From Bathymodiolus brooksi (taxonomy: Eukaryota > Mollusca > Bivalvia > Mytilida > Modiolidae): a stretch of 64,000 nucleotides of DNA. The stretch is taken from contig OY804577.1 in NCBI GenBank assembly GCA_963680875.1, forward strand, positions 100,947,906 to 101,011,905, in the 5' to 3' direction. Of the stretch, positions 5,480 to 60,811 are shown piece by piece. The position numbers and the translations under genes are program-made. Under the pieces are notes generated by a model. It did not search any database and was not told the origin of the DNA. It saw only the letters and a list, made by a program, of their open reading frames with translations. Position 1 is the first letter of the stretch; every line of letters starts with the position of its first letter.

Positions 5480-8400
5480 ATGTCTCCCTTTAATGCGGCC
5501 ATCTGTACAACAACCTATCTCGAAAGACAAAAATGTTATAACCCGGACAAGAAAATACTATTTAAAAAACAATTATTTGACCTTGAGGTCAAAAGTCAAG
5601 GTCCCATGAAAGTCATTACGGTACGCGGCAAACGCCTTATGGTCATGCACCCACATACCAAATATCATTGACCTATCTCGAAAGACAAAAATATTATGGC
5701 CCGGACAAGAAAATATATTTACAAAACAATTATTTGACCTTGAGGTCAAAGATCAAGGCCCCACGAAGGTCATTACGGTATGCGGCACACTGTCTTATGG
5801 TCATGTACCCACATACCAAATAAATACTATTTAAGAAACAATTATTTGACCTTGAGATCAAAGGTCAAGGACCAACGAAGGTCATTGCGGTACTGGAAAC
5901 ACCGCCTTATGGTCATGCACCCACATACCAAATACCATTGACCTATCTGGAAAGACAAAAATATTATGGCCCGGACAAGAAAATACTATTTAAAAAACAA
6001 TTATATGACCTTGAGGTCAAAGATCAAGGCCCCACGAAGGTCATTACGGTATGCGACACATTGTCTTATGGTCATGTACCCACATACCAAATAAATACTA
6101 TTTAAGAAACAATTATTTGTCCTTCAGGTCAAAGGCCAAGGTCCCACGAAGGTCATTGCGGTACACGAAACACCGCCTTATGGTCATGCACCCACATAGC
6201 AAATATCATTGACCTATCTCGAAAGACAAAAATATTATGGCCCGGACAAGAAAATACTATTTAAAAAACAATTATATGACCTTGAGGTCAAAGGTCAAGG
6301 TCTCACGAAGGTCATTACTGTACGCGACACACTACCTTATGGTCATGCACCCACATACGAAATAGCATTGACCTATCTCGAAAGACAAAAATATTATGGC
6401 CCGGACAAGAAAATACTATTTTAAAAACAATTATTTGACCTTGAGGTCAAAGGTCAAGGTCCCAAGAAGGTCATAACGGTATGCGACACACCGCCTTATG
6501 GTCATGCACCCACATACCAAATAAATACTATTTAAGAAACAATTATTTGACCTTCGGGTCATAGGTCAAGGTCCCACGAAGGTCATTGCGGTACGCGAAC
6601 CACCGCCTTATGGTCATGCACCCACATAGCAAATATCATTGACCTATCTCGAAAGACAAAAATATTATGGCCCGGACAAGAAAATACTATTTAAAAAACA
6701 ATTATTTGACCTTGAGGTCAAAGGTCAAGGTGCCACGAAGGTCATTACGGTACGCGACACACTACCTTATGGTCATGCACCCACATACGAAATAGCATTG
6801 ACCTATCTCGAAAGGCCAAAATATTATGGCCCGGACAAGAAAATACTATTTTAAAAACAATTATTTGACCTTGAGGTGAAAGGTCAAGGTCCCACGAAGG
6901 TCATTACGGTATGCGACACACCGCCTTATGGTCATGCACCCACATACCAAATAAATACTATTTAAGAAACAATTATTTGACCTTCAGGTCAAAGGTCAAG
7001 GTCCCACGAAGGTCATTGCGGAACGCGAAACACCGCCTTATGGTCATGCACCCACATAGCAAATATCATTGACCTATCTCGAAAGACAAAAATATTATGG
7101 CCCGGACAAGAAAATACTATTTAAAAAACAATTATATGACCTTGAGGTCAAAGGTCAAGGTCTCACGAAGGTCATTACGGGACGCGACACACTACCTTAT
7201 GGTCATGCACCCACATACGAAATAGCATTGACCTATCTCGAAAGACAAAAATATTATAGCCCGGACAAGAAAATACTATTTTAAAAACAATTATTTGACC
7301 TTGAGGTCAAAGGTCAAGGTCCCAGGAAGGTCATTACGGTATGCGACACACCGCCTTATGGTCATGCACCCACATACCAAATAAATACTATTTAAGAAAC
7401 AATTATTTGACCTTCAGGTCAAAGGTCAAGGTCCCACGAAGGTCAATGCGGTACGCGAAACATCGCCTTATGGTCATGCACCCACATAGCAAATATCATT
7501 GACCTATCTCGAAAGACAAAAATATTATGGCCCGGACAAGAAAATACAATTAAAAAAACAATTATTTGACCTTGAGGTCAAAAGTCAAGGTCCCACGAAG
7601 GTCATTACGGTACGCGACACACTACCTTATGGTCATGCACCCACATACGAAATAGCATTGACCTATCTCGAAAGACAAAAATATTATGGCCCGGACAAGA
7701 AAATACTATTCTAAAAACAATTATTTGACCTTCAGGTCAAAGGTCAAGGTCCCACGAAGGTCATTACGGTATGCGACACACCGCCTTATGGTCATGCACC
7801 CACATACCAAATAAATACTATTTAAAAAACAATTATTTGACCTTGAGGTCAAGGTCCCACGAAGGTCATTACGATACGCGACACACCGCCTTATGGTCAT
7901 GCACCCACATACCAAATATCATTGACCTATCTCGAAAGACAAAAATATTATGGCCCGGACAAGAAAATACTATTTAAAAAACAATTATTTGACCTTGAGG
8001 TCAAAGGTCAAGGTCCCACGAAGGTCATTACGGTATGCGACACACTATCTTATGGTCATGTACCCACATACCAAATAAATACTATTTAAGAAACAATTAT
8101 TTGACCTTCAGGTCAAAGGTCAAGGTCCCACGAAGGTCATTGCGGTACGCGAAACACCGCTTTATGGTCATGCACCCACATACTAAATACCATTGACCTA
8201 TCTCGAAAGACAAAAATATTATGGCCCGGACAAGAAAATACTATTTAAAAAACAATTATTTGACCTTGAGGTCAAAGGTCAAGGTCCCATGAAGGTCATT
8301 ACGGTACGCGACACACTGTTTTATTGTCATGCACCCACATACCAAATATCATTGACCTATCTCGAAAGTCAAATATATTATGGCCCGGACAAGAAAATAC

Positions 8401-8766
8401 TATTTAAAAAACAATTATTTGACCTTGAGGTCAAAGGTCAAGGTCCCACGAAGGTCATTACGGTACGCGACACGCCGCCTTATGGACATGCACCCACATA
8501 CCAAATAAATTCTATTTAAAAAACAATTATTTGACCTTGAGGTCAAGGTCCCACAAAGGTCATTACGAAACGCGACACACCGCCTTATGGTCACGCACCC
8601 ACATACCAAATATCATTGACTTATCTCGAAAGACAAAAATGTTATGGCCCGGACAAGAAAATATTATTTAAAAAACGATTATTTGACCTTGAGGTCAAAT
8701 GTCAAGGTCCCACGAAGGTCATTACAGTATGCGACACACCACCTTATGGTTATGCACCCACATATC
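5480..8766. repeat. Higher-order tandem array, 430-bp period, units of ~160/155/115 bp
   Basis: The block ATTGACCTATCTCGAAAGAC is followed by TATGGCCCGGACAAGAAAAT, the palindrome TGACCTTGAGGTCA, AGGTCAAAGGTCAAGG, CACGAAGGTCATTACGG and CTTATGGTCATGCACCCACA. A shorter unit starts at AAATACTATTTAAGAAACAA. Three units form a 430-bp higher-order repeat, with equivalent points at 6209, 6639, 7069 and 7499; the register changes after 7900. Open frames of about 70 codons recur only because the unit repeats. The outer edge starts with TATGTCTCCC, which recurs inverted-paired at 11429-11453. The array is thus probably the core of a transposable element. Comparison with the tandem-core pearl/HINE elements of bivalves is inference. 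Confidence 0.85.
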
Positions 8767-44928: not shown

Positions 44929-45090
44929 GAAAGAAAGTTATTTTTTTATATATGTAATGTTATGTTTTATTGCTATGCTGGAAGTTAATATAGAAAGTGA
45001 TATAAAATCTGAGATACTAGACAACAGTGATGATTGACAGTGTTGGGCTTTCAAACCATTTAAGCTTTTAGTAGGAGATCCTTATACCCA

Positions 45091-45105
45091 ACCTTGTATT
45101 TCAGG
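45091..45105 (+). promoter_or_regulatory. Splice acceptor directly before the U3 ORF
   Basis: ACCTTGTATTTCAG|G is followed immediately by ATG. This is a strong acceptor with a pyrimidine-rich run and invariant AG. The same sequence in the right LTR (55672-55686) would serve a spliced RNA started in the left LTR. Confidence 0.55.
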
Positions 45106-46155
45106 ATGTCGGAGGTGGTTACCAAAGTGAATATCAGGAGACTTTATACGCGCATGAGATGTAAGGGTGATGAGAGGGACGTATATATTGGGCAAAAATA
45201 TCGGGTAATAGGACACATCATGAAAACCCATTTTACCTTGACTGATGTGCCCTATTACTGCAGTCTTTGTTTTTTCAGATGCCAGCAGTGGAATGACTTG
45301 ATCAAACATGTTCGTCATTTTCGGCCACACAAAATCCAGCGAGGACAGGTGATCGCTAGTGGTAGATGGACAGGAGAGGAGGCATATCGAAAAATTAACA
45401 AATCTCCTGTCCAGTTGGTGGAAGGAACAGACTTCATATAACTGCCACGGGAGGAGGCTCTCAACCGAAAGGTTCAGAGACAGAGGGTCCATATACCAAC
45501 TTTTGGCCCCGTTCCTTTGGTTGAGAGTACACCTACACCTACTCAATCTACAGAACCTACACTCAATACTCCTACTCGGATTCAACTTACCGGACCAGCA
45601 ACTGAAACACCACCATCGACACCAATTTTATTAAGTTCGCCACTATCAACCCCTATAAGGAGGATATTACAGAGGGAGGTAGAAATGGAGTTTGCTATAG
45701 AATCAACATCAGAGGTGCCTCCCTCTCCTATCGTACATCCATCACTAGAGTGGGAAATGATTCCACTAGGGAAAGAGGAAACTAAACCAAAGCCACCATC
45801 GTCATCATCTTCCTCATCATCTTCTTCCTCATCATCCTCTTCTTCCACCTCATCTACTTCAACTAAGGATATCATTCCACTTTCTTTTTTTTCCAAGTCG
45901 TTAGATGAAATGAAGGAACTAATTATAAAACATCACGAAAATTTGATTAAGGAACAACAGGAAACTAGAAAGGAACTGGTAAATTTAACTGCACAAGTAA
46001 CTGGTCTGCGTTCAGTAGTAAGAAAGCAGGCAGATGAGATACAGAAGCTTTCGTCACCACCATCGCATAGAGTACCATCTAGAGTTCAGCGTGCTAGATC
46101 AAGGTCACCAATGAGAAGACCCAGAGGACCATTCAACAACAGAGCCAGGAAATAA
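45106..46155 (+). pseudogene. U3-encoded zinc-finger/coiled-coil protein, left LTR copy (nonsense mutation)
   Basis: A 350-codon frame (349 residues plus stop) from the ATG at 45106. Residues ~45-70 form a C2H2-like finger (YYCSLCFFRCQQWNDLIKHV, then RHFRPH). A Pro/Thr-rich linker follows, then an acidic stretch, a run of about 20 Ser near residue 235, and a predicted coiled coil (KELIIKHHENLIKEQQETRK...). The end is Arg-rich with RARSRSPMRRPRG, suggesting nuclear or nucleic-acid binding. A TAA at 45439-45441 interrupts the frame; the right-LTR copy has AAA there. Not related to gag by eye. Zinc-finger fragments of this look occur in mollusc predicted proteins, but the function is unknown. 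Confidence 0.75.
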
Positions 46156-47265
46156 ACATTCTCTTTTAATGAACATTTTTGGAAATTGTATTGCTAATTT
46201 ATGAAGCAATTATTTCAAATTACATACATTATATGACCACAATTGGTACTAGTATAAAAAAAAAACATTTGGTATTATAAGTATTTTTTTTTTTATGTCA
46301 AAATAACTGGTATTTTTTTTTGGTTGATGATTAGTTTTTTTTTTTAATTTAAATTTTTATTGTTGTTTAGATTACATTCAAATTTAATACCATAACTTAA
46401 ACTAAGAGTAGGAAAGGTAAATTAGTTAGCATCTACAGAAAAATTTCATATTGGGTTGAACTAGCTGCTGAATGGTTTGTAGTATGGGGTTTCTTGATTT
46501 TTTTTATTTTTTTCTAACAAATTTTTGTCATTATTTTTTTAAGTATTACTACTAATAGATTAAATTGTCTATTATCATCCCAATTTATCGATTTTTGATC
46601 AAAGATTAAGTCATTTTATCTATTTGTGGGGACACAAATATGAAAGAGGGGGGGTATTGAAACAAACTGAATTTTTACTTGTGATGTTGTATTCAGGAAT
46701 ATTATTGTTAATTGATTCGACTTATAATGTTGCTTTTATTGATTTTTTATCTATGCTGAAATATAAATATATTATGTTGTAACCGATTGGTTGCGGAATT
46801 ATGAACAGATTCCAATAATTATTGTAATTTATAAACTATGTTGTATTTTTTTATGTTTTCAAAACTTTGACATGTTCCCCGTGAAGTGTCAATGTACGAC
46901 TCGACCCGTTTACATCGTTATTTTTGCATGGCAACATGACTTACTTATATGTTCAATTCTCTAAACGTTGTAGAATCCGAGAATCAGTAATTTCAACCAT
47001 AATAATTGGCTTAAATACGACATTTTTGGCATTTGTCACTACATAACCACACACGTTTCTTCGTAGTGTGCCATCTTTCGATAAAACGAAGTAATGCGCA
47101 ACAACCGATTTCATTGGTCGATACTTTTAGAACTTTTACAGTAATGTTATTTTTCGTATTCAAAGTATGAGTAAATTTTGTCTTTAATTATAATGCAATA
47201 AATTTGTGTTAAAATCTAATTTTAACATTCATTATTAGGAAATTTGTAAAGTAAATCGCCGATTT

Positions 47266-47395
47266 TTGGTGATTGGTCAATTGTCATTTTTTTCCCGCGT
47301 GCTGTTCGGTCGCACAGAAATTGCCCCAAAATCGCACGGTCGCGTGAAACGTCAGTATAAAAGCGGCGACGCTCGAAATGACGTCAGAGTTCTGC
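47266..47395 (+). promoter_or_regulatory. LTR promoter (TATA box, CCAAT-like, CRE-like), left
   Basis: TATAAAAG at 47356-47363, in a GC-richer island, is preceded by GATTGGTCAATTG (inverted CCAAT) at about 47270. ATGACGTCAG (CRE-like) lies at 47379. TCAGAGT at 47384 places a plausible initiator A about 30 bp after the TATA box. The right LTR has the same elements at 58711. This defines the U3/R border in the middle of the LTR. Confidence 0.75.
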
Positions 47396-47469
47396 TAATT
47401 TTTTTGACATACAGTCGTTTGGACTCTGTTATAAAATTTCTTTGGCATTAAGGACGAATTTGTAAAAGT

Positions 47470-47660
47470 AAAAAAATTAAGAAAGGTAAATAATTGTAGA
47501 GCTTAAAAACTATATTTCTTTGGGGGGTTTTTTCTTGTTAAAATTTAAGAAAGGTAAATAATTTTAGAGCTTAAAAAATATATTTCTTTGGGTTTTTTTT
47601 CTTGTTAAAATTTAAGAAAGGTAAATAATTTTAGAGTTTAAAAACTATATTTCTTTGGTT
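47470..47660 (+). repeat. ~68-bp tandem repeat (3x) carrying a splice-donor motif
   Basis: Each unit contains TTAAGAAAG|GTAAATAATT, with GT at 47486, 47554 and 47621, then AGAG(C/T)TTAAAAACTATATT and a G/T-rich run. AAG|GTAAAT is a good donor, about 100 bases after the inferred start site. The right LTR has three matching units (58835-59015). Their use as donors is inference. Confidence 0.65.
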
Positions 47661-48038
47661 TTTTTTTGTTAATAATGTTTGAGTTTGAAATAGAATAGGA
47701 GTTAAATTTTATTACTGTGCACATATTTCTAAATAAATTTAGAAATCCAGCTACAGTCAACATAAGTAATATTTATGATTCTTCTACACCAATATTCTTA
47801 AAAGGTTGATAAATGGGTATAGTTCTATATAAGAACTTTATGTTTTAAATAGTTTTTTTCCAGTTAACAGAAGATAATTTAATCTAACATACCAGATTAA
47901 TTTTTGAAGTCGTAGGTCCACATTGTTAGCATATGCTGTTAATACAGGACTTAACCAAATATATTAGTCTGTCTCAACATAATCCTTTTCAACATCAGAC
48001 CCATATTATTGGCTTAAGTTGTCAATACAGGATCTAGC

Positions 48039-48750
48039 TAAATTTTTATTCAACTACTTGTAATCAAATAATACATGTTTAGAAACATCATTGTTCACAT
48101 GTATAGCATAGTTAGCTATACAGAACATTGCTAAATTGTTATTCAACTAATTAAATAATATATGTTTAGAAACCTCATTGTTTACCTGTGTAGCATAGGT
48201 AGCTATGCAGAACATTGCTAAATTGTTATTCAACTAATTAAATAATATATGTTTAGAAACATCATTGTTCACATGCATAGCATAAGTAGCTATACAGAAC
48301 ATTGCTAAATTGTTATTCAACTAATTAAATAATATATGTTTAGAAAAATCATTGTTCACATGTATAACATAAGTAGCTATACCGAACACTGCTAAATTGT
48401 TATTCAACTAATTAAATAATGTATGTTTAGAAACATCATTGTTCACATGTATAGCATAAGTAGCTATACCGAACACTGCTAAATTGTTATTCAACTAATT
48501 AAATCATACATGTTTAGAAAACATCATTGTTCACATGTATAGCATAAGTAGCTATACCGAACACTGCTAAATTGTTATTCAACTAATTAAATAATACATG
48601 TTTAGAAACATCATTGTTCACATGTATAGCATAAGTAGCTATACCGAACACTGCTAAATTGTTATTCAACTAATTAAATCATACATGTTTAGAAACATCA
48701 TTGTTCACATGTATAACATAAGTAGCTATACAGAACACTGCTAAATTGTT
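48039..48750 (+). repeat. ~87-bp minisatellite in R, about eight copies (left LTR)
   Basis: Unit CTAAATTGTTATTCAACTAA, then TTAAATAATATATGTTTAGA, AACATCATTGTTCACATGTA and TAGCATAAGTAGCTATAC. The first and last units are diverged. The right LTR has about seven copies, so copy number changed after or during insertion. Confidence 0.85.
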
Positions 48751-49177
48751 ATCCAGCATTGTTAATCATCTAAGGTAGATAGTATCTCAGATTTTAATTG
48801 GGAACTATCATCATTTCATTTCAAATTACCTGGAACTACCGTATTCCAATTCTGATGTAAATATGTTCATTTAATGCATCAATTATTTTTTTAATATCAC
48901 TTCAAGTTATTGATCTCAGTAGGAATGTTTGGATAAATTAAGTGGATAGTTTGTCAATTATTAAAGTAAACTGTCCAATAGCCATATTTGTGGACACTGA
49001 CAGTTGAATTTGTTTTATAAACCAATCTTATTTTTGGAAGTTAGGAAATTTTGATTATAAGTATCCAGTAATAATTCTAGTTGATATTCAATATTGTTGA
49101 CACTAGATAGTTGTATTGTCTCAACTGCAGTGTGTAATTTGACAGTTTGTAAATGAAATATAATTATTTATGCAGAT

Positions 49178-49183
49178 AATAAA
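49178..49183 (+). terminator. Candidate LTR polyadenylation signal (left)
   Basis: AATAAA in GCAGATAATAAATCATTAAC, 165 bp before the LTR end; conserved at 60443 in the right LTR. It would set the R/U5 border soon after. Confidence 0.5.
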
Positions 49184-49352
49184 TCATTAACCTTTCTGAA
49201 TCATTTATTTGTGTGAGTTATCTCCCATAGACTGCAAAGGAACTTTAGTGACCCTGGGTTAGACAGGTACTCGGGAGTACGGCAAAAGAGAAGTTTGAAG
49301 ATATCAAAGGGGTCAACCGCTAATTTGTCCACCCCTAGCGCGCTACACATTT

Positions 49353-49372
49353 TGGCATCCTCGGCGGGATTC
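49353..49372 (+). other. Primer-binding-site-like sequence
   Basis: TGGCATCCTCGGCGGGATTC begins five bases after the LTR end. Its complement ends in CCA and fits the T-arm and acceptor end of a tRNA. I cannot say which tRNA. Confidence 0.6.
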
Positions 49373-49441
49373 ATTCTTTTTGAGTGTGTCCTGTGATACG
49401 AACCTTTTGTTTTGAGAGTATTAAACACTGAGATAGCAGTA

Positions 49442-51073
49442 ATGGTTAAAAGAAGAAATCCACTTATGGGCAGGTCTAAAGACACATGTGACCATGAAAC
49501 TGACTTGTATGACAGTGACCAATACCTCACTGGTGAGACAAAACTGGCAGAAGAGAGTACAGAAAGCACCTGCTTGTCTGAAGAAGACATAGAGGACGTT
49601 GATAAAACTATGGTAATGAAAACTCCCGAAATCCTACCTAGTACAAGTTTTCAAGTCAAGGTGACTAGACCAAGTAATCCTACGTTAAGACGTAGTAAAA
49701 GACTTGTAACAAGAAAACAAATACCAAATAGAGATCACACACCCAAACCTGAGGTCACAGATGAGGGCGCACAAGGAGATACCGTCACTGGATTGTATGG
49801 AATGTTAAAGGGTGCCATTCAGGACATGACAATGCAACTAGTGACGACAATTCAAACTGCATTTATGAAGGGCAGCCGGTTCAAAGATAGGGATCTTGAC
49901 CGAAAATCACCACAAAGTCTCCCTACGCAAGCCAAAAGTATTACTAATAGTTCAAGAAGATCAGTGGTCACCAGATCACGTAAAATCAGACAGCAAATTG
50001 ATAGTGGATCAGGCAGCGAATCATCTGACTTAGATGACATGGAGTCTGATAACAGTTCAGACTGCCACAGTGTAGACACCAGTCGAATATTTAGAAGCAA
50101 AACTAAACATAATCACTCTATAAGATTGCCAGCTTTCACTGGAATAGAGAAATGGGAAGTTTGGTATCACCGTTTCGAGGCCGTAGCTGAGCTTAAAGGT
50201 TGGGACGAGACTGACAAACTACAGGAATTATTGCCTAGGCTGCAAGGTGATGCTGGTGATTTTGGTATAATCGAGCATGCTCGAACATACAGGCTACAAT
50301 TTAACCGAAGGAAACAAAATAGTACAGAAAGCCCAGAAAAGTATGCGGCAGAGCTAAAGAGGCTTTATGATAAAGCATACAGAAATAGGGATAATAAAAC
50401 AAGACAGGAAGATTTGATACAAAGATTTCTCCTTGGCCTTCAGGATTATAAAGCTAGAATCCATATTGAGCTGAACAAAGAACCGAGAAGTATAGACGAA
50501 GCCGTCCAGGAAGCGATAATTTATACAGAGACAATGAAAAATCCTAATCACCAAGAAGATAATCATAAGAGAGTGGTTAGACAGATAAGAAATACCAATC
50601 CAAAGGACTCCAAGGTCAACCCAGATAAATTCCAAGATGTCCAGGATAATGAGAAATCAGTTAGAAGTGAGCTCACTACTCTAAAGGTGGAAAGTGACTC
50701 GGAAAAGACAGGTATCGTAACTTTCAATAAGCAAGATCTTAGGGAAATATTTGAGGAAATGTTCAAAGTAAAAGAAACTGGGAATCACTTATATAATGCA
50801 GCCAGACAAAATCAAAATAGGGCTCCGGCAAGTAATACCAACTGGAATCCAATTGTATCCAGAAAACCAGTTACCTGTTTCTCATGCAATCAGCCAGGGC
50901 ATATAGCTCGAAACTGCCAGAGTACCGGTAGGACAGAACGATACTCAGATAGGGGCAACAACAGAAATGGTCAAGAATCAAGAACCAACTACTTAAGGGA
51001 TAGTAAGGAGATAGAAAAGACAAATGCAGGTCCGGCTTATGGCCGTCCTTATGGGGGCTTTGCTTTAAACTAG
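49442..51073 (+). CDS. gag: Gag polyprotein of the Gypsy element
   Basis: 543 residues from the first ATG (MVKRRNPLMGRS). The N-terminal third is charged and Ser-rich (SGSGSESSDLDDMESDNSSD). Residues ~228-375 form a Retrotrans_gag (capsid-type) domain (IRLPAFTGIEKWEVWYHRFE ... QRFLLGLQDYKARI). Near residue 480 lies one CCHC knuckle, CFSCNQPGHIARNC, for RNA binding. The C-terminus is Gly/Asn/Arg-rich. The frame is intact and ends at TAG 51071-51073, right behind a -1 slippery site, so a fraction of ribosomes should continue into protease. Confidence 0.9.
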   Translation: MVKRRNPLMGRSKDTCDHETDLYDSDQYLTGETKLAEESTESTCLSEEDIEDVDKTMVMKTPEILPSTSFQVKVTRPSNPTLRRSKRLVTRKQIPNRDHTPKPEVTDEGAQGDTVTGLYGMLKGAIQDMTMQLVTTIQTAFMKGSRFKDRDLDRKSPQSLPTQAKSITNSSRRSVVTRSRKIRQQIDSGSGSESSDLDDMESDNSSDCHSVDTSRIFRSKTKHNHSIRLPAFTGIEKWEVWYHRFEAVAELKGWDETDKLQELLPRLQGDAGDFGIIEHARTYRLQFNRRKQNSTESPEKYAAELKRLYDKAYRNRDNKTRQEDLIQRFLLGLQDYKARIHIELNKEPRSIDEAVQEAIIYTETMKNPNHQEDNHKRVVRQIRNTNPKDSKVNPDKFQDVQDNEKSVRSELTTLKVESDSEKTGIVTFNKQDLREIFEEMFKVKETGNHLYNAARQNQNRAPASNTNWNPIVSRKPVTCFSCNQPGHIARNCQSTGRTERYSDRGNNRNGQESRTNYLRDSKEIEKTNAGPAYGRPYGGFALN

Positions 51074-51106
51074 AGAGGGTCAACTCCGCTGACCGGGAGA
51101 TGACCC
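51064..51106 (+). promoter_or_regulatory. -1 programmed ribosomal frameshift signal
   Basis: The heptamer T-TTA-AAC (51064-51070) is in the required phase (gcT TTA AAC tag) immediately before the gag stop. After a 6-base spacer, GGGTCA (51077-51082) can pair with TGACCC (51101-51106). An alternative inner stem uses TGACC at 51090. The -1 frame from this point is open into the protease ORF. Heptamer, spacer and stem all match the classical signal. Confidence 0.8.
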
Positions 51107-51696
51107 CACCTGTTATTGATGTAAATGTTAAAGGTCAGCAATTGAATATTAAAGCAGAAGAATTTGTTCCTAACAACAGTATTGAAGTAATTTGTTTAGA
51201 AAAAGATGATAATGTAACAGATGTAGACAATGAAGTTTCATTAGGGAATAAGCCTATTTCGGATCCTAGAACTGATGATTCCGAAAAGGAATGTAATTTG
51301 CCAAGTAAATTAGATGTTGTCGGTCGACAGTTGACTAGAAGTGCTGGTGTTTATATTGAGGGTGCGGTGCAGGGCAGGAGGATTATGTTCACTGCAGATA
51401 CGGGTGCAGCGAGAACTGTTATTTCCACGAAAGCCTTTAAGCAAATCCCTAGGGACAAACAACCACAGTTAAAGAAATCTCGTACATTGGCTGGCGCCGA
51501 TGGACAGCCATTAGTTGAGCTTGGTAAAGCTATGTTCTCTATTAATCTAGGACAATTAACAATGGAAAGAGAGTTGATTGTCGCAGATATTGAGGATGAT
51601 GCCCTTCTTGGGCTTGACATTTTGATGAAGGGACCAGGGGGTCCTGCTGATATTAAATTGACTAAAGGTGAAATACTGTCAAATTGGCCAAAGTGA
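51070..51696 (+). CDS. Retropepsin (aspartic protease) of the Gypsy element
   Basis: In the -1 frame relative to gag; the frame is open from the frameshift site, and an ATG lies at 51100. The active site is FTADTGAARTVIS (near 51390), and ALLGLDILM near the end is the usual ILG-type second motif. The spacing of about 70 residues is normal. The N-terminal part is acidic and unlike known domains. It cleaves Gag-Pol. The frame ends TGA at 51694-51696, where RT continues in another frame (overlap 51662-51696). Confidence 0.85.
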   Translation, partial: LERVNSADREMTPPVIDVNVKGQQLNIKAEEFVPNNSIEVICLEKDDNVTDVDNEVSLGNKPISDPRTDDSEKECNLPSKLDVVGRQLTRSAGVYIEGAVQGRRIMFTADTGAARTVISTKAFKQIPRDKQPQLKKSRTLAGADGQPLVELGKAMFSINLGQLTMERELIVADIEDDALLGLDILMKGPGGPADIKLTKGEILSNWPK

Positions 51697-53400
51697 AATT
51701 GTACGAAAAGTAAGGTCTGCAGATGATTTTTACATCCCTCCTCGTAGCGAAGTTATAGTAGAAGTATTTGTCGATAAATTTGATGATGATAACCCAGAGG
51801 GGCCTCAGAATTATTTATTAGAACCATCCCCGTTCTTTGAACAAAGGTATCCTGTTGCTATGGCTGCTTGTCTTGTTGAAATTAGTCACAATGTCACCAA
51901 TCAGGTGAGACTAATGAACCCTTTTGATCATGAGGTCCAGATCGAACAGCATGCTGTTCTTGGTGAAGCTGAACCAGTTCTTGCTGAACCAGTTACCTTA
52001 TCTAGTACGGAAGATAGTGAAGAATTGAACAATTATTGTAGTGTCCGCAGAATAAAATTATCACAAGCAAACCCTGTAACATGGCAAACCAATACAGGTA
52101 TCATTAGGAGTATCTCCAAAAAGGGAACAACCGATGGAGGAAAAGGTGGAGTGGTTCCGCTACACTTGGTCGATTTATATAATCAAGCAACTGAGGATCG
52201 CACCGAACAAGAACAGGAAGATATAGCTAATCTTTTGGCGAAGTACAGCCAGACTTTTTCTAAACATGAATCAGACTTAGGACGGACAAACTTAATAGAA
52301 TATACTATTGACACTGGTGATTCTAAGCCTATCAAGCTACTACCTAGGCGAGTACCCATGGCCTTTGCAGGTGAGGAAAAAAGGGTTGTTTCTGAGATGT
52401 ATGAACAGGGCATTATACAGAAATCGAACTCACCTTGGTCCAGTCCGCTTGTATTAGTGGTAAAGAAAAACGGGAAGATTAGACCATGTGTCGATTACCG
52501 GCGGTTAAATGCGGTTACAGTAAAGGACGCCTTTCCTTTGCCACGTATCCAAGATTGTTTGGATACTGTACGTGGGTCAACCTTATTCAGTACTTTCGAC
52601 CTGACTAGTGGTTATCATCAGATACCAGTAAAACGGGAAGATGTCCCAAAAACCGCCTTTGTCACCAGGTATGGTTTATTTGAATTTCTAGCTATGCCAT
52701 TTGGTGTTTGCAATGGACCCAAAACCTGTCAACGTCTAATGGAAATGGTACTTAACGGGTTGCAATGGCAATCTTGCCTAATATACTTGGATGACGTAAT
52801 CGTTTTTAGTGACAACTTTAATGATCATATGAAACGACTGGAGACAGTTTTAGATAGGATGTCTAAGGCGAGTTTAAAGTTTAAACCTGAAAAATGTCAG
52901 CTGTTACGAAAAGAAGTCACTTTTCTGGGACACGTAGTTTCTGAGAAAGGAGTACAGCCCAACCCAGACAACATTGCAAAAATATTAGCTTGGCCTACTC
53001 CCAAGACAGTAACTGAAGTGCAACAGGTCTTGGGAATCGGGAGCTATTATAGACGCTTTATCAAGGACTTTTCCATCTTAGTTAGACCTTTGACCGACTT
53101 AACAAAGAAATCAAAAGCATTTACTTGGACAGATGAATGCAGCAAGGCTTTTGAACGACTGAAGTTAGCTTTTACCAGTACAGAGATAATGGGCTTTCCC
53201 AAGGATGAAGGTGGATTTTATCTGGATACAGATGCTTGTAATACAGCTATTGGTGCAGTTCTCAGTCAATTTCAGGATGGACAGCTGAGGGTTATTGCTT
53301 ATGGTAGGCGTACACTGAATAAAGCCGAGAGAAATTATTGCATTACTGATAAAGAACTCCTTGCTGTACGCTATTTCATAGAATACTATCGTCAAAATTC
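51662..53400 (+). CDS. pol: Reverse transcriptase and N-terminal RNase H of the Gypsy element
   Basis: Read in the frame +1 to protease. RT spans about 52330-52960: WSSPLVLVVKKNGKIRPCVD, LFSTFDLTSGYHQIPV, FGVCNGPKTCQRLM and the catalytic YLDDVIVFS. Connection and RNase H follow with WPTPKTVTEVQQVLGIGSYY, TDLTKKSKAFTWTDECSKAF, FYLDTDACNTAIGAVLSQ and TDKELLAVRYFIEYY. The frame then fails after EYYRQ near 53395 and stops at 53428. A lesion there removes a short piece of RNase H and shifts the frame. RT itself has all catalytic residues. Confidence 0.85.
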
Positions 53401-53404
53401 TGTG

Positions 53405-55101
53405 TTCGAACAGATCACCAGGCCTTAATTTGGCTTTTTAGTTTAAAGGAACCTAAAGGAAGAATCGCTAGATGGCTTGAGATTTTGTCTGCATTTGATT
53501 TCTCTGTAGAATACAGAGCTGGACCAAAACATGGAAATGCCGACACCATGTCTCGGTGCTTTAACCCAAGAGATTGTGACTGTCCACTCACTGATAATTT
53601 AGAGTACTTGAAATGTGGTCCATGCAAGAAATGCAAAAAGAGGGCTCAGGACATGTTTAGCTCAATGTCCATTCCTGTACCTTTTACTGAAAACCTATTA
53701 CAACCTGACCAATCTGATATACCAAATGAAGTTGACAAAGTGTGTGTCGTAAAAACGAGAAAACAAAGTACAGGAGAAAACACCTGGACTCCATGGAATA
53801 ATGGTTATTCCCGTACAGAGCTACAATCAATTCAAAAGGATGACCCAGATATTGGACCAATTTTTAGATGGAAAGAATGTGGCTCCCGTCCTGATCGAGT
53901 TGAATTAGTGAAAGATAGTCCAACTACGCGTCATTATTGGTATCTATGGGATTCCCTGGAGATCACAGATGAACTCTTGTTCAAGAAATTCCACAGAAAA
54001 GATGGTGTGGAAAGCTACAATCAATTCATAGTTCCTTTTCGGCTTAGAAAGGAAATCCTTAAAAATATGCATGACTCCGTAATATCTGGACACCTTGGGA
54101 AAAAGAAAACTAAGGAGAAGCTGTCTCAGAGATATTACTGGTATGAGATGAGAGAGGATATTAGTATTTGGATAAGTCAGTGTGAAATATGTGGGGCGAA
54201 TAAACCTCCACACAAGTCCAGTAAAGCACCACTAGGAAGTATGCCTGTGGGAGCGCCATTAGATAGGCTGGGAACAGATTTGTTAGGTCCTTTGCCTGTT
54301 ACACCAAGAGGTAACAAATACATCCTGACCATTACAGATTATTTCACGAAGTGGGTTGAAATTTTTGCAGTTCCAGACCAGACTGCTGTTACCTGTGCTC
54401 AAACAATGTTGAATGAAGTTGTTTGTAGATTTGGATGTCCACTTGCCATTCATTCCGATCAGGGTCGAAATTTTGAAAGCGGGATATTTCAAGAATTATG
54501 CAAGATCTTAGAAATCAGGAAAACTAGAACTAGTCCAAGGAATCCTAAATGCAATGGCCAGGTTGAAAGATTTAATAGGACACTAATAGGTATGATAAAA
54601 TCCTACTTACGAGGAGAACAGACCAATTGGGATATAAATCTAGGTTGCTTAGCAGGAGCCTACAGATCTAGCCCAAACGAGTCAACAGGTTTGACTCCTA
54701 ACCTTATGATGCTGGGCAGAGAAGTTACCCTTCCATTTGAAATTATCAACCAAAGGAAAGGGATAACTGGAGGTGAAGAAACAGAAAAAGAGGCAGCCCA
54801 TACACAAAAGATCAGGGAAAGAATGCAAAGAGCACATGTGGTGGCTCGCAAGAACCTGCAAGTAAATGCAAAGAGAAGAAAAGACTTTTACGACATAAAA
54901 GCAAAGTTAAATTCATATGCGGAATATGACAAAGTATGGTATTTAAATGAGAGTAGGAAAGAAGGAGTTTGCCAGAAATTACATCCCTTGTACCTCGGAC
55001 CTTGCCTAATATTACAGAGGTTGAGTGATCTTAACTACAAAATACAATTGGATGGTCAAGGTACTATGAAAATTGTCAACCACGACAAACTAAAACATTA
55101 G
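53405..55101 (+). CDS. RNase H end and integrase of the Gypsy element
   Basis: In the same frame as protease. It begins with the RNase H end (TDHQALIWLFSLKEPKGR, GPKHGNADTMSRC), then a Cys-rich linker (CGPCKKCKKR). Integrase has the HHCC zinc-binding block (HDSVISGHLGKKKTKEKL...CEICGANK) and the DDE core: RLGTDLLGPLPVT, AIHSDQGRNFES and NPKCNGQVERFNRT. A C-terminal chromatin/DNA-binding GPY/F-like block (LYLGPCLILQRLSDLNYKIQ) follows. The frame is intact to TAG. No chromodomain is seen. Confidence 0.85.
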
Positions 55102-55582
55102 AGACTGCAATATTCCTAAATGGATGAAATCTGTTGAAATTGCTATGTCTAAAAGAAAGAAAAATTGATTGACCATTAACATTCAATTTCTAAAAGATTT
55201 AAAAGTTTAAATCTTAGATAAACATTGTTATGAGGTCAATTATCTCGAAAAACTATTTTTTTTTTCCCCACAAATTGAAAGTAATATTTTTTTAATTTTT
55301 GTAATAAGATAAATAAAATCCTAGTGGACAACATTACATGAGTTGACAGAAACTAACAGAAAAATAAAAGAGATTAAAATTCGCAATCTTTGCAAAAAAA
55401 AAAATAAATATTGTAAATTTTTGTTTTTGTATGACCTGTAGAGATTTTGTTTTTATGTATAGTTCCACTTTCTTTTCATGATGATTATTGATCATAATTT
55501 TTGACAAAGCTCATTTTTTTCCATGAGAAGACCAAACTAATTTATATCAAATAACTGATTGGCAAGGTAAGGGTGCCATCCC
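55102..55582 (+). other. Gypsy 3' untranslated spacer, no env
   Basis: A 480-bp AT-rich stretch between integrase and the right LTR. No open frame of note. The purine-rich GGCAAGGTAAGGG at 55561-55573 is the best polypurine-tract candidate but is interrupted by pyrimidines before the LTR. Confidence 0.55.
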
Positions 55583-55686
55583 ATAAAATCTGAGATACTA
55601 GACAACAGTGATGATTGACAGTGTTGGGCTTTCAAACCATTTAAGCTTTTAGTAGGAGATCCTTATACCCAACCTTGTATTTCAGG

Positions 55687-57505
55687 ATGTCGGAGGTGGT
55701 TACCAAAGTGAATATCAGGAGACTTTATACGTGCATGAGATGTAAGGGTGATGAGAGGGACGTATATATTGGGCAAAAATATCGGGTAATAGGACACATC
55801 ATGAAAACCCATTTTACCTTGACTGATGTGCCCTATTACTGCAGTCTTTGTTTGTTCAGATGCCAGCAGTGGAATGACTTGATCAAACATGTTCGTCATT
55901 TTCGGCCACACAAAATCCAGCGAGGACAGGTGATCGCTAGTGGTAGATGGACAGGAGAGGAGGCATATCGAAAAATTAACAAATCTCCTGTCCAGTTGGT
56001 GGAAGGAACAGACTTCATAAAACTGCCACGGGAGGAGGCTCTCAACCGAAAGGTTCAGAGACAGAGGGTCCATATACCAACTTTTGGCCCCGTTCCTTTG
56101 GTTGAGAGTACACCTACACCTACTCAATCTACAGAACCTACACTCAATACTCCTACTCGGATTCAACTTACAGGACCAGCAACTGAAACACCACCATCGA
56201 CACCAATTTTATTAAGTTCGCCACTATCAACCCCTATAAGGAGGATATTACAGAGGGAGGTAGAAATGGAGTTTGCTATAGAATCAACATCAGAGGTGCC
56301 TCCCTCTCCTATCGTACATCCATCACTAGAGTGGGAAATGATTCCACTAGGGAAAGAGGAAACTAAACCAAAGCCACCATCGTCATCATCTTCCTCATCA
56401 TCTTCTTCCTCATCATAATTAATTAAAGGTAATAACAAAATTACCGAACTCCGAACAATCTTACAAAGGGAAAGTCAAAACTCATAATTATATAAACAGA
56501 CAAAATCAGTCAACAACCGGAAAACTGTGAAAACCGTAATGACCCTGACTTGGTACAGGCATTTCTAAAGAAATGGTGGGTTGAATCAGATTTTAAGGCG
56601 CCAAACCTCCCGCTCTCATTACGGTTCAAAGGTTCCGGCTGTCACTGTAACAGTATTTAAATACAGGAACAAAATAGGTAAAATAGTTGTCAAAGCAGTA
56701 CCATATTCGGTGACGTAAATGTCAAAAATATTTTTACGTCACACATTGACAAAAAAAATTCTTGACATATTTGACTCTTTATCTTTATACATTTTCACTA
56801 TATGAAAATGCATCGCTTATAATTTATTCTGCAGAGACGGAATATATTTCGACAAGATATTGGTATCGGAATATAAACTTTTTAAGAGATCGAATAAGGC
56901 GAATCTTTTTATAGCCCTGGTCCAGTAGCCTGTTTCTCAGATGAAGATGACGTTTCAGGAAATCAGAATAATTGCTACTGCCCCTTGCATAGCGAATCAA
57001 TTGCGAGATGTAAACACCATATGCAGGAGAAGCTGGTATATTGCTGCACATATTTGGAAAATTTATGATTTTAAAATTGAAGCTATGATGGCGGCTGTAA
57101 AACTTTTAAAGTGATGATTTTAACTTTACTATTAGGAACCCTGGATTTTGCAGCTTCCTTGTAAGCAGCAGCCCTCTATCATCATCCTCTTCTTCCACCT
57201 CATCTACTTCAACTAAGGATATCATTCCACTTTCTTTTTTTTCCAAGTCGTTAGATGAAATGAAGGAACTAATTATAAAACATCACGAAAATTTGATTAA
57301 GGAACAACAGGAAACTAGAAAGGAACTGGTAAATTTAACTGCACAAGTAACTGGTCTGCGTTCAGTAGTAAGAAAGCAGGCAGATGAGATCCAGAAGCTT
57401 TCGTCACCACCATCGCATAGAGTACCATCTAGAGTTCAGCGTGCTAGATCAAGGTCACCAATGAGAAGACCCAGAGGACCATTCAACAACAGAGCCAGGA
57501 AATAA
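55687..57505 (+). pseudogene. U3-encoded zinc-finger/coiled-coil protein, right LTR copy (split by insertion)
   Basis: Reads through the position of the left copy's stop (KLPREEALNRK) as far as the Ser run, then ends at TAA 56416-56418 created by the insertion. The rest, from DIIPLSFFSKSLDEMKELII to the Arg-rich end PRGPFNNRARK, resumes after 57180. A few silent or conservative differences from the left copy are visible (for example F to L after CSLC). The two copies therefore carry different lesions, and the source element presumably had an intact frame. Confidence 0.75.
56417..57179 (-). mobile_element. 5'-truncated retroelement inserted in the right LTR
   Basis: Absent from the left LTR and flanked by CATCAT on both sides (possible target duplication, in a low-complexity tract). 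On the minus strand 57051-56824 encodes YGVYISQLIRYARGSSNYSD and LRNRLLDQGYKKIRLIRSLK, a C-terminal piece I know from abundant mollusc non-LTR-type reverse transcriptase proteins. Its 3' part contains GGAAAACTGTGAAAACCGTA on the + strand, and the same sequence occurs inverted at the window end (63945-64000). Confidence 0.7.
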
Positions 57506-58619
57506 ACATTCTCTTTTAATGAACATTTTTGGAAATTGTATTGCTAATTTATGAAGCAATTATTTCAAATTACATACATTATATGACCACAATTGGTACT
57601 AGTATAAAAAAAAAAAAAAAAAACATTTGGTATTATAAGTATTTTTTTTTTATGTCAAAATAACTGGTATTTTTTTTTGGTTGATGATTAGTTTTTTTTT
57701 AATTTAAATTTTTATTGTTGTTTAGATTACATTCAAATTTAATACCATAACTTAAACTAAGAGTAGGAAAGGTAAATTAGTTAGCATCTACAGAAAAATT
57801 TCATATTGGGTTGAACTAGCTGCTGAATGGTTTGTAGTATGGGGTTTCTTGATTTTTTTTTTTTTTTTCTAACAAATTTTTGTCATTATTTTTTTAAGTA
57901 TTACTACTAATAGATTAAATTGTCTATTATCATCCCAATTTATCGATTTTTGATCAAAGATTAAGTCATTTTATCTATTTGTGGGGACACAAATATGAAA
58001 GAGGGGGGGTATTGAAACAAACTGAATTTTTACTTGTGATGTTGTATTAAGGAATATTATTGTTAATTGATTCGACTTATAATGTTGCTTTTATTGATTT
58101 TTTATCTATGCTGAAATATAAATATATTATGTTGTAACCGATTGGTTGCGGAATTATGAACAGATTCCAATAATTATTGTAATTTATAAACTATGTTGTA
58201 TTTTTTTATGTTTTCAAAACTTTGACATGTTCCCCGTGAAGTGTCAATGTACGACTCAACCTGTTTACATCGTTATTTTTGCATGGCAACATGACTTACT
58301 TATATGTTCAATTCTCTAAGCGTTGTAGAATCCGAGAATCAGTAATTTCAACCATAATAATTGGCTTAAATACGACATTTTTGGCATTTGTCACTACATA
58401 ACCACACACGTTTCTTCGTAGTGTGCCATCTTTCGATAAAACGAAGTAATGCGCAACAACCGATTTCATTGGTCGATACTTTTAGAACTTTTACAGTAAT
58501 GTTATTTTTCGTATTCAAAGTATGAGTAAATTTTGTCTTTAATTATAATGCAATAAATTTGTGTTAAAATCTAATTTTAACATTCATTATTAGGAAATTT
58601 GTAAAGTAAATCGCCGATT

Positions 58620-58750
58620 TTTGGTGATTGGTCAATTGTCATTTTTTTCCCGCGTGCTGTTCGGTCGCACAGAAATTGCACCAAAATCGCACGGTCGCGT
58701 GAAACGTCAGTATAAAAGCGGCGACGCTCGAAATGACGTCAGAGTTCTGC
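58620..58750 (+). promoter_or_regulatory. LTR promoter, right copy
   Basis: TATAAAAG at 58711-58718 with the same inverted CCAAT (GATTGGTCAATTG) and ATGACGTCAG as the left LTR; inferred start about 58741. From here it could drive transcription into flanking DNA. Confidence 0.7.
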
Positions 58751-59390
58751 TAATTTTTTAGACATACAGTCGTTTGGACTCTGTTATAAAATTTCTTTGG
58801 CATTAAGGACGAATTTGTAAAAGTAAAAAAATTAAGACAGGTAAATAATTTTAGAGCTTAAAAACTATATTTCTTTGGGGTTTTTTTTCTTGTTAAAATT
58901 TAAGAAAGGTAAATAATTTTAGAGCTTAAAAACTATATTTCTTTGGGGTTTTTTTCTTGTTAAAATTTAAGAAAGGTAAATAATTTTAGAGTTTAAAAAC
59001 TATATTTCTTTGGTTTTTTTTTGTTAATAATGTTTGAGTTTGAAATAGAATAGGAGTTAAATTTTATTACTGTGCACATATTTCTAAATAAATTTAGAAA
59101 TCCAGCTAGTCAACATAAGTAATATTTATGATTCTTCTACACCAATATTCTTAAAAGGTTGATAAATGGGTATAGTTCTATATAAGAACTTTATGTTTTA
59201 AATAGTTTTTTTCCAGTTAACAGAAGATAATTTAATCTAACATACCAGATTAATTTTTGAAGTCGTAGGTCCACATTGTTAGCATATGTTGTTAATACAG
59301 GACTTAACCAAATATATTAGTCTGTCTCAACATAATCATTTTCAACATCAGACCCATATTATTGGCTTAGGTTGTCAATACAGGATCTAG

Positions 59391-60016
59391 CTAAATTTTT
59401 ATTCAACTACTTGTAATCAAATAATACATGTTTAGAAACATCATTGTTCACATGTATAGCATAGATAGCAATACAGAACATTGCTAAATTGTTATTCAAC
59501 TAATTAAATAATATATGTTTAGAAACCTCATTGTTTACCTGTGTAGCATAGGTAGCTATACAGAACATTGCTAAATTGTTATTCAACTAATTAAATAATA
59601 TATGTTTAGAAACATCATTGTTCACATGTATAGCATAGGTAGCTATACAGAACATTGCTAAATTGTTATTCAACTAATTAAATAATATATGTTTAGAAAC
59701 ATCATTGTTCACATGTATAGCATAAGTAGCTATACCGAACACTGCTAAATTGTTATTCAACTAATTAAATAATATATGTTTAGAAACATCATTGTTCACA
59801 TGTATAGCATAAGTAGCTATACCGAACACTGCTAAATTGTTATTCAACTAATCAAATAATACATGTTTAGAAACATCATTGTTTACATGTATAGCATAAG
59901 TAGCTATACCGAACACTGCTAAATTGTTATTCAACTAATTAAATCATACATGTTTAGAAACATCATTGTTCACATGTATAGCATAAGTAGCAATACAGAA
60001 CACTGCTAAATTGTTA
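59391..60016 (+). repeat. ~87-bp minisatellite, about seven copies (right LTR)
   Basis: Same unit as 48039-48750 with one copy fewer. Variants (AATATATG against AATACATG, CAGAACATTG against CGAACACTG) are ordered alike in both LTRs. Confidence 0.85.
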
Positions 60017-60612
60017 TCCAGCATTGTTAATCTTCTAAAGTAGATAGTATCTCAGATTTTAATTGGGAACTATCATCATTTCATTTCAAATTACCTGGAA
60101 CTACCGTATTCCAATTCTGATGTAAATATGTTCATTTAATGCATCAATTATTCTTTTAATATCACTTCAAGTTATTGATCTCAGTAGGAATGTTTGGATA
60201 AATTAAGTGGGTAGTTTGTCAATTATTAAAGTAAACTGTCCAATAGCCATATTTGTGGACACTGACAGTTGAATTTGTTTTATAAACCAATCTTATTTTT
60301 TGAAGTTAGGAAATTTTGATTATAAGTATCCAGTAATAATTCTAGTTGATATTCAATATTGTTGACACTAGATAGTTGTATTGTCTCAACTGCAGTGTGT
60401 AATTTGACAGTTTGTAAATGAAATATAATTATTTATGCAGATAATAAATCAATAACCTTTCTGAATCATTTATTTGTGTGAGTTATCTCCCATAGATTGC
60501 AAAGGAACTTTAGTGACCCTGGGTTAGACAGGTACTCGGGAGTACGGCAAAAGAGAAGTTTGAAGATATCAAAGGGGTCAACCGCTAATTTTTCCACCCC
60601 TAGCGCGCTACA

Positions 60613-60811
60613 ATATTATACAAATATTCCATGTGATTGTGGTCAATATACAAGAATATTTTCCCGAGGTACCTTGAATTGCATGGATGTGTTATATTGC
60701 CCGACGCCAACGGTAGAGGGTAATAAAACACATCCATGCAATTCAAGGTACCGAGGGAAAATGTTCTTGTATATTGACCCCAGTCACATCGAATATTTGT
60801 TATATTATATT
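60613..60811. repeat. Foldback palindrome abutting the Gypsy element
   Basis: The left arm ATATTATACAAATATTC...GTCAATATACAAGAA...CCTTGAATTGCATGGATGTG is inverted at 60727-60811. The spacer is short (TTATATTGCCCGACGCCAAC...). The LTR ends at the outer edge of the left arm, so the Gypsy element inserted at or beside the palindrome. Confidence 0.7.

Follow-up and report, generated by a model that had tools for sequence, protein, structure and literature searches.

A conserved third gene downstream of integrase in a Ty3/Gypsy retrotransposon of Bathymodiolus brooksi, at a damaged locus that imitates a U3-encoded gene

The 64,000-nucleotide stretch of the Bathymodiolus brooksi genome considered here (hereafter the window; assembly GCA_963680875.1, contig OY804577.1, positions 100,947,906 to 101,011,905 of the forward strand) harbors a Ty3/Gypsy long terminal repeat (LTR) retrotransposon which possesses, in addition to gag and pol, a third gene referred to below as ORF3 (open reading frame 3). 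In other copies of the element, ORF3 sits between the integrase and the 3' LTR, upstream of the polypurine tract (PPT), and it is a genuine selected gene, whose zinc-ligand residues stay the same across at least five lineages. A preliminary description of the window had assigned the frame to U3, the unique 3' portion of the LTR, in the manner of mouse mammary tumor virus (MMTV) sag or lentiviral nef. That assignment is refuted by a solo LTR and by empty sites at the same locus; what is left standing is a third gene that a branch of Gypsy elements has conserved under selection. The probability that both the structure of the locus and the reality of the gene are as given here, function excluded, is estimated at about 0.92.

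Element class

All of the gag-pol matches to Pfam, namely zf-CCHC, aspartyl protease, RVT_1, RNase H, H2C2 and rve, are above cut-off, and they present the order protease-reverse transcriptase (RT)-RNase H-integrase together with a zinc-knuckle gag, which is that of Ty3/Gypsy (Metaviridae). The LTRs are of the TG...CA type with a 4-bp target-site duplication (TSD), and a tRNA primer-binding site (PBS) and a PPT adjoin them, so the preliminary attribution to Gypsy stands. The PBS, complementary to the 3' end of tRNA-Arg(TCT) including its CCA, starts 5 nt after the LTR end; the CCA of a tRNA 3' end is added post-transcriptionally. No tRNA gene was found by searching the window. Elsewhere on the same chromosome, at C3:89016088-89072676, at least 34 sites matching the PBS complement can be found, mostly 1.67 kb apart, and both units checked with ARAGORN hold a tRNA-Arg(TCT) gene. 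Membership of the Troyka lineage, characterized by CG...CG ends and a 3-bp TSD in its description (PMC12440569), is ruled out by the TG...CA ends and the 4-bp TSD.

Locus architecture

In the window, gag and pol are enclosed by a direct repeat (45002-49347 and 55583-60612), on which the preliminary description had based LTRs of ~4.3 kb. The long repeats are real, with an identity of 99.5% across the first 834 bases and of 97-98% across the remainder, the second being 5.03 kb long, enlarged by a 762-bp insert, but they are not the LTRs, which measure 2.69 and 2.60 kb. Were the repeats LTRs, the ORF would truly lie in their U3 and would be made like sag or nef, and both the repetition itself and an apparent ATAT at the two outer sides speak for it. 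The other copies of the element in the same genome (2.0 Gb, 136 contigs; all counts of genome matches are lower bounds) speak against it. Used as a query, the supposed 4.3-kb LTR gives at least 81 matches, many of which start at approximately the equivalent of window position 46655 and are devoid of the ORF part. Across the edges fetched, LTRs start with TGAAACAAAC and finish with GCGCTACA (TG...ACA), and all 13 outer left edges outside the window, of which at most 12 are independent since two share a common flank, begin at the TG equivalent to 46658, i.e., 1.66 kb further right than the supposed edge. No ORF sequence precedes any of these 13 edges in the 300 to ~4900 bases fetched upstream. 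A PPT precedes the TG at all eight middle or 3' LTR edges read, including two in the window. Within the supposed LTR itself, immediately ahead of the TG, there is thus a PPT of good quality. Five LTRs measured from edge to edge span 2.44-2.89 kb, and an exact 4-bp TSD, mostly ATAT or GTAT, is present at nine of the 11 loci where both edges were read. In the eight other close copies, one of which has a large deletion in pol, the ORF invariably comes after pol, so that its predicted place at the 3' end of the genomic RNA, after integrase, is borne out. From the LTR edges, the TSDs and the order in other copies, it therefore follows that the LTRs of the window are the two listed in Table 1 and that the ORF is outside U3.

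The history of the site leads to the same result. The whole window (1-64000) is one of several units duplicated segmentally along its chromosome (C3:100.78-101.37 Mb), where at least eight copies of its left flank, one of them inverted, can be found. The neighboring duplicate, C3:101018745-101071879, matches most of the window piecewise at 95-99.6% identity, mostly 98-99%, and at the same site has a solo LTR with ATAT on either side and without the ORF. All six further duplicates fetched are empty sites, with no LTR and ATAT only once. The left flank of the solo-LTR paralog equals the window up to 45007 and then continues with 54 extra bases before the LTR; the empty sites put the target 54 bp away from the ATAT beside 45002, which is coincidental and was rejected as a TSD. 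With these observations, the probability left to a U3-encoded gene is practically nil.

From the paralog sites it follows that the window lost 54 flank bases and, on the reading of the locus as a tandem dimer, also a left unit's LTR together with its gag and pol. This reading, in which two units share a middle LTR and the missing parts of the left one were deleted via microhomology, is strongly supported. A complete dimer with a common middle LTR would have come first; a deletion using 6 nt of microhomology would then have removed the LTR, gag and pol of the left unit, and the leftover ORF3, PPT and LTR would imitate a long LTR holding an ORF. The ATAAAA at the 45002 junction is common to both parent sequences. 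A same-family tandem dimer with a common middle LTR can be found at C8:61.99-62.02 Mb, and in other lineages three ORF3 pairs ~11 kb apart (C4:117.26-117.28, C6:40.40-40.42 and C1:60.65-60.67 Mb) have pol before both ORF3 copies, whereby these pairs were rejected as LTR pairs. Where compared, the copies in these tandem units are 99.8-99.96% identical. Within the window, the divergence between the two ORF regions is 0.24-0.48%; copy 1 and the ORF3 of other close loci are 1.3-3.5% apart. The near-identity inside the window would be given by a dimer made from one element.

The same near-identity and the same arrangement would also be expected if, on a single occasion, plus-strand synthesis had started upstream of the normal PPT and put ORF3 on both ends of one cDNA, i.e., a one-off extended LTR. 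Against such mispriming, no polypurine run directly precedes 55583, the 45002 edge is off the target defined by the paralogs, bears microhomology rather than a TSD and lacks 54 bp of flank, and tandem units are present elsewhere. This reading was rejected and is to be seen as very unlikely.

Some observations fit the damaged dimer less well. Between the window LTRs, the two stretches compared show divergences of 0.75% and 1.34%, the second value being no lower than the 1.0-1.8% between loci; the TSD is inexact at two of the 11 loci; the full dimer stage at this locus is itself inferred, and other rearrangements could give the same form. A broken tandem dimer within a segmental duplication can, in any case, mimic a U3-encoded gene, and constitutes a trap for automatic LTR annotation.

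Several repeats accompany the locus. The LTRs contain tandem repeats of 87-bp and 67-bp units (48061-48752 and 59414-60017; 47472-47667 and 58827-59027), and GAAAGGTAAAT, which could serve as a splice donor, occurs in the 67-bp units soon after the TATA box. Twelve LTR copies, with matches from the LTR start and ~92-95% identical, are spread over 7 Mb at C10:44.8-51.4 Mb. Directly right of the insertion site, a palindromic element (60620-60800) with 83-nt arms that are 90% complementary is also present in the empty-site duplicates, and a tandem repeat region at 5513-8764, with offsets of ~270 and ~430 bp, is shared with the neighboring duplicate.

Table 1. Features of the retrotransposon locus (window positions).
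Feature	Position	Strand	Basis
Deletion junction, host flank to pre-ORF3 region, 6-nt microhomology ATAAAA	45002..45007	.	flank comparison with paralogs
Upstream tandem unit remnant: pre-ORF3 spacer, ORF3, post-ORF3 region, PPT	45002..46657	+	same order from pol to 3' LTR in 8/8 close copies
ORF3 copy 1, 349 codons, in-frame TAA at codon 112 (45439-45441)	45106..46155	+	translation
PPT, AAAGAGGGGGGG	46643..46654	+	3 nt before TG of first LTR
First (shared middle) LTR, TGAAACAAAC...GCGCTACA	46658..49347	+	edges match 13 outer left edges, 4-bp TSDs
TATAAAA box, LTR	47356..47362	+	read from sequence
AATAAA poly(A) signal, LTR	49178..49183	+	read from sequence
PBS, 19 nt complementary to tRNA-Arg(TCT) 3' end plus CCA	49353..49371	+	16-base pattern search, ARAGORN
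gag, zinc knuckle	49442..51073	+	Pfam zf-CCHC, E 3.4e-06
Protease part of pol, in a frame different from RT in this copy	51100..51696	+	Pfam gag-asp_proteas, E 1.9e-09
RT and RNase H	51668..53428	+	Pfam RVT_1, E 2.1e-33; RT_RNaseH_2, E 8.3e-27
Integrase	53485..55101	+	Pfam Integrase_H2C2, rve
TTTCAG splice-acceptor-like site, 1 nt before ORF3 ATG	55680..55685	+	TTTCAG in 15/15 copies aligned
ORF3 copy 2 before the insert: two zinc-type motifs and a Thr/Pro linker	55687..56416	+	
Insert in Ser run of ORF3 copy 2, 762 bp with 7-bp duplication	56417..57178	.	
ORF3 copy 2 after the insert: probable coiled coil and a basic tail	57179..57505	+	
3' LTR	58013..60612	+	repeat comparison, edges of other copies
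ATAT, right-hand copy of 4-bp target	60613..60616	.	paralog solo LTR with ATAT on both sides; empty sites once

ORF3 as a selected gene

The 349-codon frame reported for each repeat (in copy 1, from the ATG at 45106 to a stop ending at 46155) has the correct length but is intact in neither window copy, given the in-frame TAA of the first and the insert of the second, neither of which the preliminary description mentions; relatives of this insert can be found at C3:101036209 and C3:101082667. Elsewhere, intact copies exist. Among the eight close copies that are at least 96% identical, five are open throughout, the disrupted ones being the C8 dimer pair, with a common 11-base deletion, and one copy with a 1-base deletion. 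When an intact natural copy of ORF3 was used as the query, the genome search returned at least 121 matches, 43 of which, by hand count, start within residues 1-15, match without a stop and lie in a frame of at least 320 amino acids (among these 43 are one C12 frame in which a later piece contains a stop, and three copies of family A that carry small indels).

Selection was estimated from the ratio of nonsynonymous to synonymous divergence (dN/dS), computed for 21 ORF3 pairs, those with dS of at least 0.06 and without the C15 copy being taken as informative (n = 9). In these nine pairs, dN/dS amounts to 0.13-0.43, e.g., 0.26 (0.12-0.56), 0.30 (0.18-0.46) and 0.23 (0.15-0.32), and an excess of third-position changes is seen in six of eight pairs, the two exceptions being C15 pairs. 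According to the preliminary description, a dN/dS near 1 in all copies, or an ORF restricted to this locus, would mark a passenger captured by one element; instead, many copies are found, with constraint in the informative pairs.

Other results weigh against so simple a picture of constraint. Three pairs with the decayed C15 copy yield dN/dS values of 0.76-0.94, two C12 copies compared with one another yield 0.60, and the remaining nine pairs are too close to inform (0.3-2.9 or undefined, with wide intervals). Four C12 copies have a 5-nt deletion, and two of them have also lost the ATG, the start thus being split from the fingers. Furthermore, synonymous divergence exceeds the divergence of the noncoding stretch after ORF3 in four out of five comparisons (0.56 versus 0.15 for C5 and C12_4314), the reverse being observed with C3b. 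The post-ORF3 stretch may be conserved, or exchanged between lineages, so dN/dS may overstate the constraint.

A further trace of ORF3 can be found at C15:8.92-8.96 Mb, where dozens of matches to its Thr/Pro-coding part, often 39 bases apart, form what is apparently a minisatellite grown from a decayed copy.

Lineages, relatives and protein motifs

Beyond the window family, designated lineage A, four further lineages (B to E) possess ORF3 relatives that are 20-46% identical; the grouping into five lineages relies on identity and frame length rather than on a tree, with one to three loci inspected for each lineage other than A. While integrase identity among lineages A, C and D amounts to 69-73%, the ORF3 proteins of the five lineages share 22-39% identity over their alignable parts. 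Despite this divergence, eight residues (C16, C19, H37, H42, C52, C55, H68 and H75 in lineage-A numbering) are invariant in the five aligned sequences, i.e., a CCHH plus CCHH set is kept in all lineages. The first motif is spaced C-x2-C-x17, x15 or x11-H-x4-H and the second C-x2-C-x12-H-x6-H. All five proteins also end with a basic tail, the final 60 residues having a net charge of +6 to +18. A point against the account given here is that no pol frame of at least 150 amino acids can be found in the 1.5 kb upstream of the lineage-B copy.

The preliminary description spoke of a C2H2, coiled-coil and Arg-rich protein. The Cys/His motifs are indeed present as a pair, the tail is basic and a coiled coil is probable, but both motifs differ from the classical C2H2 spacing (C-x2-C-x12-H-x3..5-H), Pfam C2H2 matches being below cut-off only. 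In Pfam scans covering ORF3 from lineages A, C, D and E, the only family above cut-off is a short CAP motif in lineage D; the Pfam matches to a coiled coil are weak. A weak likeness of the Cys/His motifs to ZNF462 and BCL11A fingers is below cut-off or has an E value of at least 0.04, and a search of PDB sequences with ORF3 gave only weak or low-complexity matches.

Outside this genome, protein searches recovered at least 17 relatives from public contigs (jgi, lgn and ena), many of them fragments or frame-shifted; one of these searches scored 8000 candidates only. Of these, P0009, placed with lineage B by eye, aligns over 97% of the family-A protein with 42% identity, and 94% of P0009 is in turn covered by P0010. 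Scans of viral contigs and of genome contigs for ORF3 relatives were unproductive.

Expression of ORF3

In all five lineages, a CAG is situated 0, 1 or 2 bases upstream of the ORF3 ATG, after 6-11 pyrimidines in 12. Since such a CAG accompanies 3-4% of all ATGs in the window, five out of five greatly exceeds the chance expectation, even if kinship makes the lineages not wholly independent; in lineage D there are earlier in-frame ATGs and the one beside the CAG was picked. The hexamer TTTCAG is kept in all 15 aligned copies of lineage A and the C12 relatives; in two C12 copies the ATG is gone. The arrangement corresponds to the layout of a spliced 3' gene, and ORF3 is probably translated from a spliced mRNA with its acceptor 0-2 nt before the ATG.

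Possible function

Nucleic-acid or chromatin binding, already suggested in the preliminary description, is plausible judging from the composition of the protein. More specifically, two zinc-type motifs, a probable coiled coil, a basic tail and the status of a probably spliced accessory gene would fit a nuclear, nucleic-acid-binding product. It can be tentatively hypothesized, with somewhat less than an even chance of being right, that ORF3 encodes an oligomeric accessory protein of this kind, which would bind the RNA of its own element and regulate its export or expression. If so, regulation resembling that of complex retroviruses would have arisen in yet another lineage of LTR elements.

Nearly as likely, ORF3 may bind DNA or chromatin instead, transactivating the LTR, directing where integration occurs or counteracting silencing by the host. 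The basic tail and the weak resemblance of the paired Cys/His motifs to ZNF462 and BCL11A fingers would agree with such a role; there are, on the other hand, only two fingers, the second with an unusual spacing, and the same observations would also suit RNA binding. Most unlikely is a replacement for the envelope, where the gene in the env position would make a protein for structure or for cell transfer: the place after integrase and the likely spliced message are indeed those of env, yet the Cys/His motifs, the Ser run and the Arg-rich tail are unlike a membrane glycoprotein, and no retroelement envelope family is among the Pfam matches of ORF3.

On a broader scale, a whole branch of animal Ty3/Gypsy elements might carry an ancient, fast-evolving, spliced third gene whose product, by virtue of its paired zinc motifs, coiled coil and basic tail, would be a dedicated regulator of the RNA or chromatin of its own element, as an independently evolved counterpart of Rev or CERV; this wider proposal is possible but rather doubtful.

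Comparison with known systems

Third genes in LTR elements are best known from the errantiviruses (e.g., Drosophila gypsy), where env comes after integrase and is expressed from a spliced message. ORF3 shares this place and, likely, the splicing, whereas its Cys/His motifs and its composition are not those of a membrane glycoprotein. MMTV sag and lentiviral nef are wholly or partly located in the U3 of the LTR; all of these are accessory genes situated towards the genome's 3' end, but ORF3 is upstream of both PPT and LTR. In plants, Ty3/Gypsy elements such as those of the Tat lineage carry additional ORFs. An m6A (N6-methyladenosine)-demethylase domain is described for LTR elements of orchids (PMC9289625). 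The plant cases resemble ORF3 in being an extra conserved gene or domain in Gypsy, and are set apart by other proteins and other hosts.

Among titles and abstract openings in the open-access literature, with Repbase and closed journals outside this scope, no description of a post-integrase Gypsy gene with zinc motifs was encountered. The nearest described parallel is CERV, from the Caenorhabditis elegans LTR retrotransposon Cer1. CERV is made from a spliced mRNA and needed for nuclear export of the genomic RNA, and a possible zinc finger, a leucine zipper and a nuclear localisation sequence are ascribed to it (PMC10309623). The same source places its exons 1-3 in the gag frame, takes the possible finger to be of the C4 type and mentions a G-protein-like domain (PMC10309623). 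Compared by description, ORF3 differs in starting at a separate ATG beyond integrase and in having motifs of the CCHH type; what the two would have in common is the status of an LTR-element accessory protein translated from a spliced message, a likeness of role rather than a demonstrated homology.

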